A program made the position numbers and the translations under genes. Below, piece after piece: positions 58,736-64,000 of a stretch of 64,000 bases of DNA. This stretch comes from Natronococcus sp. A-GB7. Its GTDB lineage: Archaea > Halobacteriota > Halobacteria > Halobacteriales > Natrialbaceae. How positions within the stretch are numbered: position 1 is the stretch's first letter; every line of letters starts with the position of its first letter. The stretch spans positions 1 through 64,000 of the forward strand of contig NZ_JARUKV010000028.1 of assembly GCF_029688865.1 (NCBI RefSeq). The letters run 5' to 3'. A model generated the notes under the pieces. The model was given only the letters and a program-made list of their open reading frames with translations. It was not told the origin of the DNA and did not search any database.

Positions 58736-60922
58736 TTAGATGTAGTCGATGATCTCGGGCAGCTCGAGCTTCATGCCCTTGCGCTCGCGGATCTCCATGA
58801 TCTTCTCGCGCTGGAGCGAGTCGGACATGACCTCGAAGCCGGCGTTCTCGGTGTTCCAGGAGGCACGACCCTCGGTCGCGGAGCGGATGTCGCTCGCGAA
58901 GCCGATCATCTCGCCGACAGGGGCGATCCCCTCGACGACCATCAGATCGCCTTCCTGGTACATGTCGTCGACGCGGCCACGACGACCCTGGATCTCGCCG
59001 GACGCGGCACCCATGTGGTCGTTTGGCACGTCGATACGGGCGTCCTGCATCGGCTCGAGCAGCTTGATCTTCCCGTCGATCAGCGCCTTGTGGAGCGCGT
59101 TTCGGGTCGCCGGGATGACCTGCGCCGGACCGCGGTGGATAGTGTCCTCGTGGAGCCTGGCGTCGTGCAGCCGGATGAGCGTCCCCTGCACCGGCTCGTT
59201 TGCGAGCGGACCGTTGTTGAGGGCGTCCTCGAATCCCTCGATCACGAGTTCCATCGTCTCGTTCAGGTGCTGGATACCCTTCGTGTCGTCGATGAGGATG
59301 TTCGTCCCGTGGATGTGCTCGACTTCCTGGGAGTCGTCTTTCTCCATGCCTGCGTCCTGCAGGGCTTCACGGCGCTCCTGTTCGGGCATATCCATCGACG
59401 CCTCGCCGAGCTGGATCGCCTCGACGAGTTCGTTCGACATCGGCTCGATAGAGACGTAGAAGCGGTTGTGGCGGTTCGGCGAGATGCCTTCGATCTCGTC
59501 GCTCGCCTGCTGGGGCTGCTCGCGGTAGACGACGATCGGTTCGCCGGTGATGACCGGGATCCCCTGGTTCTTCTCGATACGCTGAGTGATGACCTCGAGG
59601 TGGAGCTCACCCTGTCCGGAGATCAGGTGCTCGCCGGTGTCCTCGTTGATCTCGATCTGGATCGTCGGGTCCTCCTTGGAGACCTGTCGCAGCGTCTCGA
59701 TGAGCTTCGGCAGGTCGTCCATGTTCTGGGCCTCGACGGCCTTCGTGATGACCGGCTCGGAGATGTGCTCGATCGACTCGAAGGGCGTCATCTCGATCGA
59801 GGAAACCGTCGAACCGGCAATGGCGTCCTTGAGACCGGTGACGGCAGCGATGTTCCCGGCGGGAACGCGCTCGACTTCCTCGCGCTCGCCACCCATGTAG
59901 ATGCCGACCGACTGGATACGGTTCTTGCCGGCGGTCCCGGAGACGTACAGCTCCTGGCCCTTCTCGAGGGAGCCCGAGAAGACGCGACCGGAGGCGATCT
60001 CGCCCGCGTGGGGGTCCATCCCGATGTCGGTGACCATGAAGACGACCTCGCCGGTCTCGTCGACGAGACGCATCCCTTCCGCGAGCTCGGTTTCGTCGTC
60101 GCCGCGCCAGATGCGCGGGATACGACGGGGCTGGGCGTCGACGGGGTTCGGGAAGTGCTCACAGACCATGTCGAGCACGACGTCCGACAGCGGCGTTCGC
60201 TCGTGGAGCTCCTGGCGCTCGTCGCCGCGCTCGAGTTCCATGATGTCGCCGAAGTCCATCCCGGTGCGCTGCATCGACGGCATCGAAACGCCCCACTTGT
60301 ACAGCGCGGAGCCGAAGCCGACCGTGCCGTCCTCGACGGAGACGGTCCAGTCGTCGATGTCGTCCATATCCTCGGTCATCCCGCGGATGAGTTCGTTGAC
60401 GTCGTTGATGACCGAAACGAGTCGGCGCTGCATCTCCTCTGGTCCCTCCTGGAGCTCGGAGATGAGGCGGTCGACCTTGTTGATGAATAGGGTCGGCTTG
60501 ACGCCCTCGCGCAGCGCCTGGCGCAGAACCGTCTCGGTCTGGGGCATGGCACCCTCGACGGCGTCGACGACGACCAGCGCACCGTCGACGGCGCGCATCG
60601 CACGGGTGACGTCGCCACCGAAGTCGACGTGACCCGGCGTGTCGATGAGGTTGATGAGGTGATTCGTTCCCTCGTACTCGTGGGTCATCGAAACGTTTGC
60701 TGCGTCGATAGTGATCCCACGTTCCTGCTCGTCCTCCTCGGTGTCCATCGCGAGCTGCTCGCCGGCAGTCTCGTCGGAGATCATGCCCGCGCCAGCGAGA
60801 AGGTTGTCGGAGAGGGTCGTTTTTCCGTGATCGACGTGAGCGGCGATGGCGATGTTCCGGATGTTCTCCGGTTCGTCCATCAGCCGTTCACACTCTTGGA
60901 CGATCTTCTTGCGTCGGCCCAT
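58736..60922 (-). CDS. fusA: Translation elongation factor aEF-2
   Basis: This 728-residue archaeal EF-2 has G1 [20 protein letters not shown] (about 28-47), the [15 protein letters not shown] switch region, [28 protein letters not shown], and later domains with [15 protein letters not shown]. Domain IV has [20 protein letters not shown], with the His of IHRG as the expected diphthamide site. It drives ribosomal translocation. Length and motif order fit haloarchaeal EF-2. The gene is well separated from its neighbours and has no operon partner on its strand. Confidence 0.96.
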
Positions 60923-61126: not shown

Positions 61127-61885
61127 ATGGATATCCGCGTCAACGGCTCGGGGCCGACCGCCCCTTTTCTCGGAGCCCGGGACCTGTTCGAGACCGAGTA
61201 CGACCTCTCGCTGCCGGTCGACGTCGAGCTACGCGACGACCCCGACGTTCGGACCTGGGCCGGTCACTACGACGACCGACACGTCCTGAACATCTCCCGA
61301 CAGGCCGCCTCGAGCGCGATGGCCCGCGAGCTCGCCCTCCACGAGTTCGCCCACATGGCCAGATACGAACAGAGCCACCCCTCTCACACCCAGTCGACCG
61401 AGGAGGTGCTGTACCTCGCACTGGCCGGGAAAAGCGTCGAGCGCCGCAAGCTCTCTCATTGCTACCAGATCGCAAACCACATGAAGGATATCTACGCCGA
61501 CGACATCACGCTCTCGGTCGGCCCCGGCGAGAAGCTCCTCTCGTTTCTCGAGTCGAGTCTCGCGGCGGCGGTCGTCGACCGACCCCGAAACACGCCACAG
61601 AGCGGCCGAACGAGGCTCTCGGCGAGCGCCGATCCCGAGATCACGGCCGTCAACGCGGCGTTTGCCCTGGCGCTTGCGGAGCGACACGACCTCGTCGAGC
61701 CGGATCACCGCCTGTACGATCTCGCCCACGTCGCCGCAGTGGATGCCCCCGACGTGCCGTTCCAGGCGTTCAAGCGTCGGTTCCGCGAGCTGACCAGGGA
61801 TCCCGACTCGAGCAGCTACCGACAGGTCCTCGTCGACGCGACGCGGGCGTACGTCGGCGAGGGGGAGTCGGCGAGTGAAGCCTAG
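61127..61885 (+). CDS. HExxH-containing conserved haloarchaeal protein (DUF5781-like)
   Basis: This protein has 252 residues from MDIRVNGSGPTAPFLG at 61127, preferred over 61112. The motif LHEFAHMARYEQSHPSHTQSTEEVLYLAL has His72, Glu73 and His76, and a following EE pair that could supply a third ligand, the arrangement of a zincin peptidase. The C-terminal half is helical (PEITAVNAAFALALAERHD; FQAFKRRFRELTRDP). There is no signal or membrane segment, so it is cytoplasmic. Peptidase activity is inferred. The DUF name is from memory. Confidence 0.78.
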   Translation: MDIRVNGSGPTAPFLGARDLFETEYDLSLPVDVELRDDPDVRTWAGHYDDRHVLNISRQAASSAMARELALHEFAHMARYEQSHPSHTQSTEEVLYLALAGKSVERRKLSHCYQIANHMKDIYADDITLSVGPGEKLLSFLESSLAAAVVDRPRNTPQSGRTRLSASADPEITAVNAAFALALAERHDLVEPDHRLYDLAHVAAVDAPDVPFQAFKRRFRELTRDPDSSSYRQVLVDATRAYVGEGESASEA

Positions 61886-61931
61886 CTCCCCGTCGTCAGC
61901 TACCCGAACGTTTAATGTTTTACACCTCATT

Positions 61932-61946
61932 AGTATGGAACATACT
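61932..61946. promoter_or_regulatory. Perfect palindrome just upstream of the DUF7504-like start
   Basis: AGTATG (61932-61937), GAA, CATACT (61941-61946) is a perfect inverted repeat ending five bases before the ATG at 61951. It follows an AT-rich stretch (TTTAATGTTTTACACC) that may be the promoter. Its position suits a repressor site. Confidence 0.45.
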
Positions 61947-61950
61947 GGCA

Positions 61951-62652
61951 ATGCTCTCCGAGACAGATGCCCGTGGACCGGACGACGCGTTTATCGAGGA
62001 ACTGGCGCGGCTGAAACGCCGCGGAGCGAGCGTCCTCGTCGTCGGGTCGACCCGGGCGAGCCAGCAGGCCGAGACCTGCCGCCGACTGCTCGGACACGCC
62101 ACGGACCGTCCACGTCGACGGATTCTGGTGTCGACGACCGGTGAGAGCGCACCGATCGAGTCACTCGTCGACGAGACGCCCTCGGACAGCCACCGCATCG
62201 TCCGACACGAGATCGACGTTCGAAGCGCTAGCGCCGCCTCCAGCGGTCACGCGCCGACGCCGTCGGTCGGCGTTCCCGTAACGACCACCGAGACGCTCGC
62301 CGACCTCGGGATCGGGATCTCGAGTGCGATCGAGTCGCTCGAAACCGCCGCGAACGGGCTCGAACCCTCCGAGCTTCGGATCGGTGTCGACTCGCTGCTC
62401 CCGCTGCTCGAGACGTACGGCACGGAACGCGTGTTTCGGTTTATCCACCTCACTAACGGGCGGGTGAGACGATCCGACGGCATGATCCACTACCGGCTCC
62501 CGGTCGATCGGGAGAACGAGGTCGTCCCGGTTCTCACGCCGCTTTTCGACGTCGTCGTCGAGCTTCGGGCGCACAACGGCGTCTGTCAGGAGCGGTGGTC
62601 GCTCAAGGACGAATCGCTGTGCTCGGGCTGGATTTCGACGCGACAGCTGTAA
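61951..62652 (+). CDS. Haloarchaeal DUF7504-like protein
   Basis: This protein has 233 residues from MLSETDARGPDDAFIEEL. The first part resembles a nucleotide-fold protein (RRGASVLVVGSTRASQQAETC), and the middle has TETLADLGIGISSAIESLE. The last part is strand-rich (RVFRFIHLTNGRVRRSDGMIHYRLPV; DVVVELRAHNGVCQERW). Many haloarchaea carry this type beside a larger partner, as here, 75 bases upstream of the next gene. No catalytic motif is clear, and the role is unknown. The family name is from memory. Confidence 0.68.
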   Translation: MLSETDARGPDDAFIEELARLKRRGASVLVVGSTRASQQAETCRRLLGHATDRPRRRILVSTTGESAPIESLVDETPSDSHRIVRHEIDVRSASAASSGHAPTPSVGVPVTTTETLADLGIGISSAIESLETAANGLEPSELRIGVDSLLPLLETYGTERVFRFIHLTNGRVRRSDGMIHYRLPVDRENEVVPVLTPLFDVVVELRAHNGVCQERWSLKDESLCSGWISTRQL

Positions 62653-62727: not shown

Positions 62728-64000
62728 ATGAAACCGACGTTCGAGCCGACGGCCGACGGACTCGAGATTATCGATCGGATCGAACGCCACCGGTACCGGC
62801 TGACGACCCACGATCCAGTGTCGCTCGAACCTGCCGACTGCGACGAAATACAGTATCCAGTTGACTCGGCGGTTCGGATCACGACCGATACGATCACGCT
62901 ACCGACGACTCATCACGTCTACGTCCGCGACGAAACTGGGGCGATGGTCGCCGAAGTGAAACCGGACGAGCAGACGTTTTTGCCGGAGGGAGAGTATACT
63001 CTCGACATCTCGGTTTCTATGAAGGTATATGCCCGCGTCGATAGTTCTCTCCAGATATACTCTGATCCAGAACGAACACATATTACACTAGACAGTCCCT
63101 CGCCGGTAACATTCGGCGCACGTTCCTATCACACTCGTCCTTCACAAACAATTACGACTACAGCAGCACCAACCGACGTGATGCGTACCGTATCAGCGTT
63201 TGGCTCAGCATTGAAGACAACGACTGCAGAGCGCTCATATCCAACCCTACGCGGACACCCACCTGCAGTGGAATTAGGGGACGAACTGGACGTACCTGAT
63301 CGACTAACGGTTCCGGACACCGGTATCAAAATCGGAGTTCCAAAAAAGCTCGAACGAATCTTCGTCGTTTCCCCGCTGGTGTACTATTTGGGAGCAAAAG
63401 TCGTGCCAAGAACCGAACCTCGTCTAATAACTGACGAAGGATACACTCACACTCTCGACGGGCCGGAAGGATTCGAAGAAACGGTCGAACGAATCCTCAA
63501 GCAAATTTTCTTTCTTGATACAGTGGTGAGAACAGAAGGTATGACGCCACTTCCGCTTCAGAAACGAGAACAGGTAGAGCCACTATTCAATCATAGTATA
63601 CAAAATTTATACGAACAGCCGTTAATGGAGCAAATTCAAAACTATCTTAGGGTTCCGTTTTCTGAGTTGGAACCAGCAATTCCTAACTGGCGATTCGAAA
63701 CACATGTCGGACCGAGTCCACAAATAACTGAATTTCTGCCGTTCATAGCTAATGATCTCGCGGCAGTCAAAATAAACGAAGTGGAAAAGCAGCCACCGAC
63801 TGTTTCAGAGGAAGCGCAAACGATCTCCGACTTTACTCGAAGCGGCCGCACCCGAAATACGGAACCGGTCCGTAATACGGAACCAGAATCAACTCAGAGG
63901 GATATTTCAGCATCTCCACTAATACGACAGCTGTGGAATAGTTCGAATGGTGGGGATATTGACAGCACAGCGCCATTGGAAGCCTTTAAAAATAGCATCG
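62728..64000 (+). CDS. Large haloarchaeal protein of unknown function (partial, runs off right edge)
   Basis: An open frame starts at ATG 62728 and continues in frame to the last base, giving 424 residues with no stop. It begins MKPTFEPTADGLEIIDRIER and has MVAEVKPDEQTFLPEGEYTL and RTVSAFGSALKTTTAERSYPT. Then come FVVSPLVYYLGAKVVPRTEP and ERILKQIFFLDTVVRTEGMT. I recall similar proteins that may carry a caspase-like CHAT domain at the C-terminus; that part is outside the window. The first 90 codons are GC-rich like the genome, and the following codons are AT-rich. It is 75 bases from the preceding DUF7504-like gene, probably in one operon. Confidence 0.8.
   Translation, partial: MKPTFEPTADGLEIIDRIERHRYRLTTHDPVSLEPADCDEIQYPVDSAVRITTDTITLPTTHHVYVRDETGAMVAEVKPDEQTFLPEGEYTLDISVSMKVYARVDSSLQIYSDPERTHITLDSPSPVTFGARSYHTRPSQTITTTAAPTDVMRTVSAFGSALKTTTAERSYPTLRGHPPAVELGDELDVPDRLTVPDTGIKIGVPKKLERIFVVSPLVYYLGAKVVPRTEPRLITDEGYTHTLDGPEGFEETVERILKQIFFLDTVVRTEGMTPLPLQKREQVEPLFNHSIQNLYEQPLMEQIQNYLRVPFSELEPAIPNWRFETHVGPSPQITEFLPFIANDLAAVKINEVEKQPPTVSEEAQTISDFTRSGRTRNTEPVRNTEPESTQRDISASPLIRQLWNSSNGGDIDSTAPLEAFKNSI

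Follow-up and report, generated by a model that had tools for sequence, protein, structure and literature searches.

A caspase-like gene of Natronococcus with a constant head and a body exchanged together with the tail of a convergent peptide gene

A gene that crosses the right-hand end of the window (the whole analysed stretch of 64,000 nucleotides from Natronococcus sp. A-GB7) contains a recombination junction, at which allelic replacement within one gene has left conflicting trees and sharp edges. One block, consisting of codons ~88-690 of this gene (CHAT1) and the last ~15 codons of an adjoining DUF7503 gene, has been replaced by homologous recombination. The block is bounded on the left by the conserved head of CHAT1 and on the right by the conserved front half of DUF7503 and the spacer next to it. 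Because CHAT1 and DUF7503 meet tail to tail, one event swaps the variable ends of both proteins. Immune and self-recognition genes vary in a similar manner. The features of the locus are listed below, with contig positions for those past the window.

58736..60922, reverse strand: open reading frame used as a marker, the conserved left boundary of the locus; its product, named by recognition of the sequence, we take to be translation elongation factor EF-2
61127..61885, forward strand: DUF5781 protein, a conserved syntenic neighbour (PF19093, E 6.8e-133)
61915..62652, forward strand: DUF7504 protein (PF24336), which tracks the species tree along with the CHAT1 head
62728..64000, continuing to contig 64800, forward strand: CHAT1, N-terminal 424 of 690 residues of a putative haloarchaeal CHAT/caspase-like protein (open reading frame, contig reading, alignment)
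62728..62988, forward strand: native GC-rich head, codons 1-87 of CHAT1 (GC3; tree in agreement with rpoA2)
62950..63057, forward strand: junction zone, CHAT1 codons ~75-110, where between-species identity collapses (9-codon windows, 75-base steps)
62989..64000, forward strand: part within the window (codons 88-424 of 88-690) of the exchangeable AT-rich body (composition, identity, trees)
contig 64801-64926, past the window, reverse strand: DUF7503 (profile match)
from contig ~65127, past the window: CHAT2, a tandem second copy

The CHAT1 frame stays open past the edge of the window, which truncates CHAT1 beyond residue 424; the complete gene occupies positions 62728-64800 of the contig (65,444 bases). 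The composition shift inside one open frame that an earlier note had described from the window is confirmed, as G+C content is 59.4% at 62728-62988 and 47.6% at 62989-64000. The window as a whole is 65.9% GC, and no 1-kb interval within it (step 250) is as low as 47.6%. GC3 is 0.67-0.77 across codons 1-87 and 0.32-0.57 in the bins that follow, and the best single change point falls after codon 95 (window position ~63012; 0.72 before, 0.41 after), a result reached by none of 200 shuffles.

The earlier note regarded a GC change at the same point in distant homologues as evidence against a recombination junction. Such sharing was found only within one locus, where four of the 14 genes examined, all from Natronococcus with the native head, have their change point at codons 86-98. 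The other ten change elsewhere (codons 56, 65 and 121 in genomes G003, G006 and G007; 324 in G001; 209 and 526 in G035 and G025) or not significantly (G011, G012, G026 and G027). The shared change point is not decisive by itself, and the verdict of recombination is reached because the trees conflict. The AT-rich body is common to all Natronococcus alleles at the EF-2/rps7 locus, unlike the genes of G012 and G027 at the same locus, which are GC-rich (GC3 0.73). In three further family members (L026, L019 and L027), the last ~90 residues, past the CHAT domain, are AT-rich (GC3 0.34-0.57) and little conserved while the rest is GC-rich, as if the C-terminal tail alone had been exchanged.

The history of the two parts of CHAT1 was compared using phylogenies. 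The rpoA2 tree and the tree of DUF7504 plus CHAT1 codons 1-87 agree in placing A-GB7, G005 and the sisters G002 and G004 in one group (support 99/99 on rpoA2 and 90/99 on the head), consistent with the proposal of the note that the N-terminus is the old part of the gene. In the tree of the body (codons 88-690), G004 joins G007, and A-GB7 joins G002 and then G006, with support of 99-100. AU tests, for which the groupings were picked after the trees were seen, reject G004 with G007 and A-GB7 with G002 on the rpoA2 data (p 6.7e-5 and 5.0e-4) and on the head data (p 1.8e-3 and 3.2e-4); on the body data, the rejected groupings are G002 with G004 (a deficit of 435 log units, p 1.1e-6) and the four-species group (341 log units, p 1.1e-10). 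Together, the conflicting trees and the AU tests bear out the suggestion of a recombination junction at the composition change. One genome per species was compared, and the rpoA2 tree was built without G011 and G035, whose examined stretches have rpoA2 truncated or missing. A broken CHAT1 frame led to the exclusion of G008 from the dS and tree sets. In this genome (L041:5295-7348), CHAT1 is split into two frames, one of 547 aa and a separate piece, apparently through pseudogene formation or an assembly error.

Divergence within the gene follows the same division. Synonymous difference among A-GB7, G002, G004 and G005 is 0.07-0.26 in DUF7504 (partial in G002, at a contig start) and 0.09-0.45 in CHAT1 codons 1-87. 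In codons 121-690, five of the six species pairs reach 0.69-0.87 with pN of 0.18-0.41, values at which body pS is near saturation and allele ages and positive selection are out of reach; the exception is A-GB7/G002, a pair with a common body lineage (0.37-0.54). Control paralogues at two other loci of the same species have pS of 0.05-0.34 and pN of at most 0.07 over the whole gene, with GC3 of 0.84-0.87 in the four species, and have neither a divergence jump nor AT-richness. Consequently, the excess is confined, among the family copies compared, to the EF-2/rps7 locus. The flat paralogue controls and the conflicting trees also rule out codon bias or quicker drift of the 3' part of the gene.

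The edges of the block were located by comparing four species against G002. When G002 is compared with its sister G004, the DUF7504 part has an identity of 0.98, and CHAT1 has identities of 0.97 over codons 1-75, 0.81 over codons 76-110 and 0.56-0.67 over codons 111-690, so that the variability attributed to the gene in the note is seen as a fall from 97% before codon 75 to 56-67% after codon 110. To the right, the spacer after DUF7503 has an identity of 0.94, CHAT2 of 0.59-0.73, rps7 of 0.97 and rps12 of 1.00, and the first block ends on this side within DUF7503 (L023:2405-2435). Between G005 and G002, the CHAT1 body is 0.61-0.68 identical and CHAT2 is 0.83-0.92 identical, indicating that the two blocks move separately. 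The rps7, rps12 and rpoA2 genes of G002 share 86-100% identity with those of the four relatives.

The gene order in Natronococcus is EF-2 (reverse), DUF5781, DUF7504 and CHAT1 (all forward), DUF7503 (reverse), CHAT2 (forward), and rps7, rps12, nusA and rpoA2 (all reverse). This order is found, whole or in part, in six further genera of the same family (G011, G012, G025, G026, G027 and G035), some of which are missing CHAT2; neither DUF5781 nor EF-2 was found in the stretch examined of G012. The description of the upstream neighbour as DUF7504-like is upheld by the profile match (PF24336, E 4.9e-54, 183.9 bits against a cut-off of 27). In the DUF7504 genes of G001 and G003 (L042:7786-8517 and L033:9043-9765), codon 6 counted from the A-GB7 start is an in-frame stop, and the true start is therefore probably downstream. 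No separate DUF7503 accompanies CHAT2, which in the A-GB7 assembly is split across the ends of contigs C21 and C7. No family relative was found in a phage collection, and of the viral contigs searched with an alignment of 24 relatives, 29 stretches fit a pattern and none was confirmed. A mobile insertion or phage origin was rejected on the basis of these viral sets and the unbroken gene order of the locus.

The identity of the protein was probed using profiles, alignments and predicted structures. Searches of Pfam (the CHAT profile included), NCBIfam and PADLOC gave no match for the CHAT1 protein, and NCBIfam and PADLOC scans of six family proteins likewise returned none. Among the 24 relatives aligned, CHAT (PF12770) is the commonest Pfam match, found weakly in nine (best E 9.4e-4; 11.4-16.4 bits, where given, against a cut-off of 24 bits). 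The earlier note had recommended looking for a CHAT or other effector domain in the rest of the gene, and a predicted CHAT-like domain lies just past the window at residues ~430-600. The conserved C-terminal half contains the histidine of an HYIGH motif (H492) and the cysteine of an LNxCQS motif (C523), each kept in at least 90% of the 24 relatives, and the order of this dyad (strand-His, then strand-Cys) is that of caspases, with predicted strands ending at or beside both residues in a low-confidence model. Furthermore, a third cysteine, C500 of a GFxC motif (residue 500 of L036:305-2374), lies eight residues past the catalytic-type histidine and is present in 24 of 24 relatives, a higher conservation than that of the dyad. 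G018 (L028:2268-6634) encodes two tandem family members, the aligned one of which has neither dyad residue and is likely non-catalytic.

The fold model of the domain has a pLDDT of 45 and a pTM of 0.37, and the full-length fold a pLDDT of 41. The best four structural alignments of this low-confidence model are to the TPR-CHAT protein Csx29 (Z 7.6-8.6), followed by SAVED-CHAT, separase and caspases mixed with unrelated folds (receiver domains up to Z 7.1). Foldseek returned no hit for the same model at E <= 0.001, a PDB sequence search with the 24-relative alignment gave three unconvincing matches (E 0.48-0.97), and the N-terminal half has no Pfam match and no recognised fold. From the dyad, the weak profile matches and the structural alignments, we take CHAT1 to be a CHAT/caspase-like protein and a putative protease.

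Relatives are present in 54 of the 61 genomes examined, many with several copies, and in 19 of 120 genomes sampled across the phylum (15 in the same order and four in one other family); a scan of a genome-contig collection gave two loci only. In 25 haloarchaeal plasmid records, the relatives are almost all annotated 'hypothetical protein', with one 'caspase family protein' and one 'CHAT domain-containing protein'. Upstream of two plasmid copies (L079:5063-5893 and L082:4552-5937), a 'HalOD1 output domain-containing protein' is annotated, which suggests that signalling output domains can be present in the upstream partner. A second subfamily (e.g. L031:4319-6403, on G000:C76) is GC-rich, conserved and without DUF7503, and is slow-evolving in the six species compared.

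The DUF7503 gene lies directly 3' of the CHAT1 stop on the opposite strand and encodes 41 aa (PF24335, E 1.1e-20, 73.3 bits against a cut-off of 27). The complete set of 83 DUF7503 matches, all in the 61 genomes, was compared against the 150 CHAT matches listed from a larger total; 79 of the 83, without exception on the opposite strand, are found 1.7-2.5 kb downstream of a CHAT start. Among the CHAT matches listed, 71 of 150 are without DUF7503, including tandem second copies and the separate GC-rich subfamily. Among the 150 DUF7504 matches listed, again from a larger total, 34 immediately precede a CHAT copy on the same strand, and each of these 34 copies also has DUF7503. The stop codons of CHAT1-type and DUF7503-type genes are -4 to 7 bases apart in 16 of 19 loci checked, which were picked since both genes had already been located there.

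DUF7503 proteins have a conserved basic HPR-like motif followed by a long hydrophobic stretch. Most of them have an A-x-A-like site, and their tails are variable and frequently end in GP. In our reading, these features suggest a signal-peptide-like or membrane peptide. Orthocaspases are described as cleaving after basic residues (PMC6426788), and by analogy a cut after the HPR arginine is possible. In eight Natronococcus loci, with the gap of the one-residue-shorter G007 sequence placed by hand, Mantel comparisons show that distances over codons 27-41 of DUF7503 correlate with those of the CHAT body (r 0.71, p 0.0004; head r 0.06), and distances over codons 1-26 with those of the head (r 0.57, p 0.04; body 0.24, not significant). 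The DUF7503 of G004 illustrates both, as its front half is as in A-GB7, G002 and G005 and its tail resembles that of G007, which has the same body lineage as G004. The covariation of tail and body can be mere linkage of adjoining sequences.

We propose that DUF7504, CHAT and the convergent DUF7503 form a three-gene haloarchaeal module in which CHAT1 would be the protease with a constant head and a variable body. Within one allele, the short tail of DUF7503 may serve the CHAT protease as its cognate ligand, inhibitor or substrate, and DUF7504 may relay or gate activation. An activated or mismatched protease would harm or kill the cell, and allele diversity would be kept if rare alleles are better at detecting non-self, i.e. 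viruses or a fusing partner cell. That CHAT1 is a polymorphic caspase-like effector and DUF7503 its matched peptide, the two being swapped together as a single specificity cassette with putative roles in death, pairing and self/non-self, is a tentative but quite possible reading. This functional reading is held with reserve because linkage could explain the match of tail and body and because the annotation of nine plasmid neighbourhoods of CHAT copies shows no conspicuous defence genes.

The same exchange could be ordinary homologous replacement, in which an AT-rich orthologue is imported across conserved flanks (EF-2, rps7, the gene start) and the DUF7503 tail, the nearest neighbour of the body, hitchhikes by adjacency, with no special selection or pairing. 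The rps7, rps12 and rpoA2 genes would serve as good homology arms, and cross-species exchange is described as common in haloarchaea (PMC4500145); however, two paralogues in the same genomes are collinear and unswapped, the CHAT1 body and CHAT2 have been exchanged as separate blocks, and 79 of 83 DUF7503 genes retain the tail-to-tail arrangement, which makes this explanation doubtful, if a serious contender. The earlier idea that the old N-terminus was joined to an unrelated foreign body drew on the abrupt composition shift within an open frame. It is very improbable indeed, as relatives of other genera and families align over residues 1-690, and the A-GB7 gene and G002 have both head and body in common. 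A homologous body is present in every homologue aligned, and the event is therefore an allelic replacement within one gene; the full-length homologues likewise rule out a whole-gene chimaera.

Alternatively, CHAT1 could act in antiviral abortive infection, as a protease whose diversity is due to conflict with viruses alone, with DUF7503 as a membrane effector freed or activated by cleavage in the manner of caspases and gasdermins. CHAT proteases are reported to work in immune systems such as Craspase (PMC10028731, PMC9729208), and the hydrophobic stretch of DUF7503 is preceded by the conserved HPR motif. The nine plasmid contexts contain no defence-gene neighbourhood, no PADLOC match was found in the six relatives scanned, the family is present in 54 of 61 genomes, a spread that differs from the patchiness of mobile defence genes, and DUF7503 resembles gasdermin in nothing except the partner role; an exclusively antiviral protease is consequently unlikely. 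CHAT1 could also be a protease that serves signalling or stress responses in central metabolism, linked to translation by its position between EF-2 and rps7 and variable through neutral drift under weak constraint. This would fit the conservation of this position in the genus and several others, as well as the HalOD1 regulators annotated upstream of two plasmid copies. Other copies lie elsewhere with no adjoining translation genes, and neutral drift would not yield conflicting trees with sharp edges, which leaves this account quite improbable.

Comparison with known systems places the specificity cassette proposed here in context. CHAT1 resembles CHAT proteases (PF12770; Csx29/TPR-CHAT and SAVED-CHAT) and the separase/caspase clan CD in the His-Cys dyad, placed where two predicted strands end; the structural alignments of the low-confidence model are best to Csx29, and nine of 24 relatives have weak profile matches. 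It differs in having no CRISPR partner at the locus, a haloarchaeal N-terminal half without a Pfam match, and DUF7504 and a convergent 41-aa peptide as partners; Cas7-11 of the type III-E Craspase is not beside CHAT1, whose neighbours are EF-2, DUF5781, DUF7504, DUF7503, CHAT2 and rps7. Fungal het and protease-linked gasdermin loci are described as having alleles unsorted by species and proteases, some of them CHAT, encoded beside the partner gene (PMC12881547). The Natronococcus locus, with a putative protease and a proposed partner, is similar in both respects; however, it is archaeal, and its partner is a 41-aa peptide rather than a gasdermin. CHAT-containing putative sensors diversified by DGRs are likewise described as rapidly varying conflict proteins (PMC10907252), although there the variation is point hypermutation and here it is whole-block replacement.

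Pfam assigns no function to the DUF7503 and DUF7504 families, to which the CHAT1 neighbours belong. In the open-access literature searched (a scope that leaves aside subscription papers and preprints), no paper was found on DUF7503 or DUF7504 or on a link of either to a CHAT protease, and none that joins Haloferax volcanii with 'CHAT domain'. The protein class is already known; the module that includes a convergent peptide appears to be new, as does the two-ended exchange cassette. A conserved tail-to-tail pair of protease and peptide, with variable ends moving as one block, would be an unusual way of keeping two interacting specificities matched.

Caspase-like activity has been reported in H. 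volcanii, and the same source describes archaeal genomes as having no clear homologues (PMC3615174). This activity, which cleaves LEVD/VEID, would be of the same haloarchaeal caspase-like kind as that predicted for CHAT1, and both DUF7503 and DUF7504 are present in H. volcanii. Haloarchaea are described as mating by cell fusion, with their own species preferred or more efficient (PMC5496957), and a highly diverged caspase-like locus is therefore a plausible place for an archaeal self/non-self check. A more specific proposal, that the two-ended cassette (caspase-like protease and secreted or membrane peptide, receptor and ligand swapped together) is an allorecognition or fusion-incompatibility system and that the family is a candidate for the orphan haloarchaeal caspase activity, is speculative and rather unlikely. 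The caspase-like activity of H. volcanii was reported without a known gene, and the CHAT family with its partners makes this question testable by knockout.
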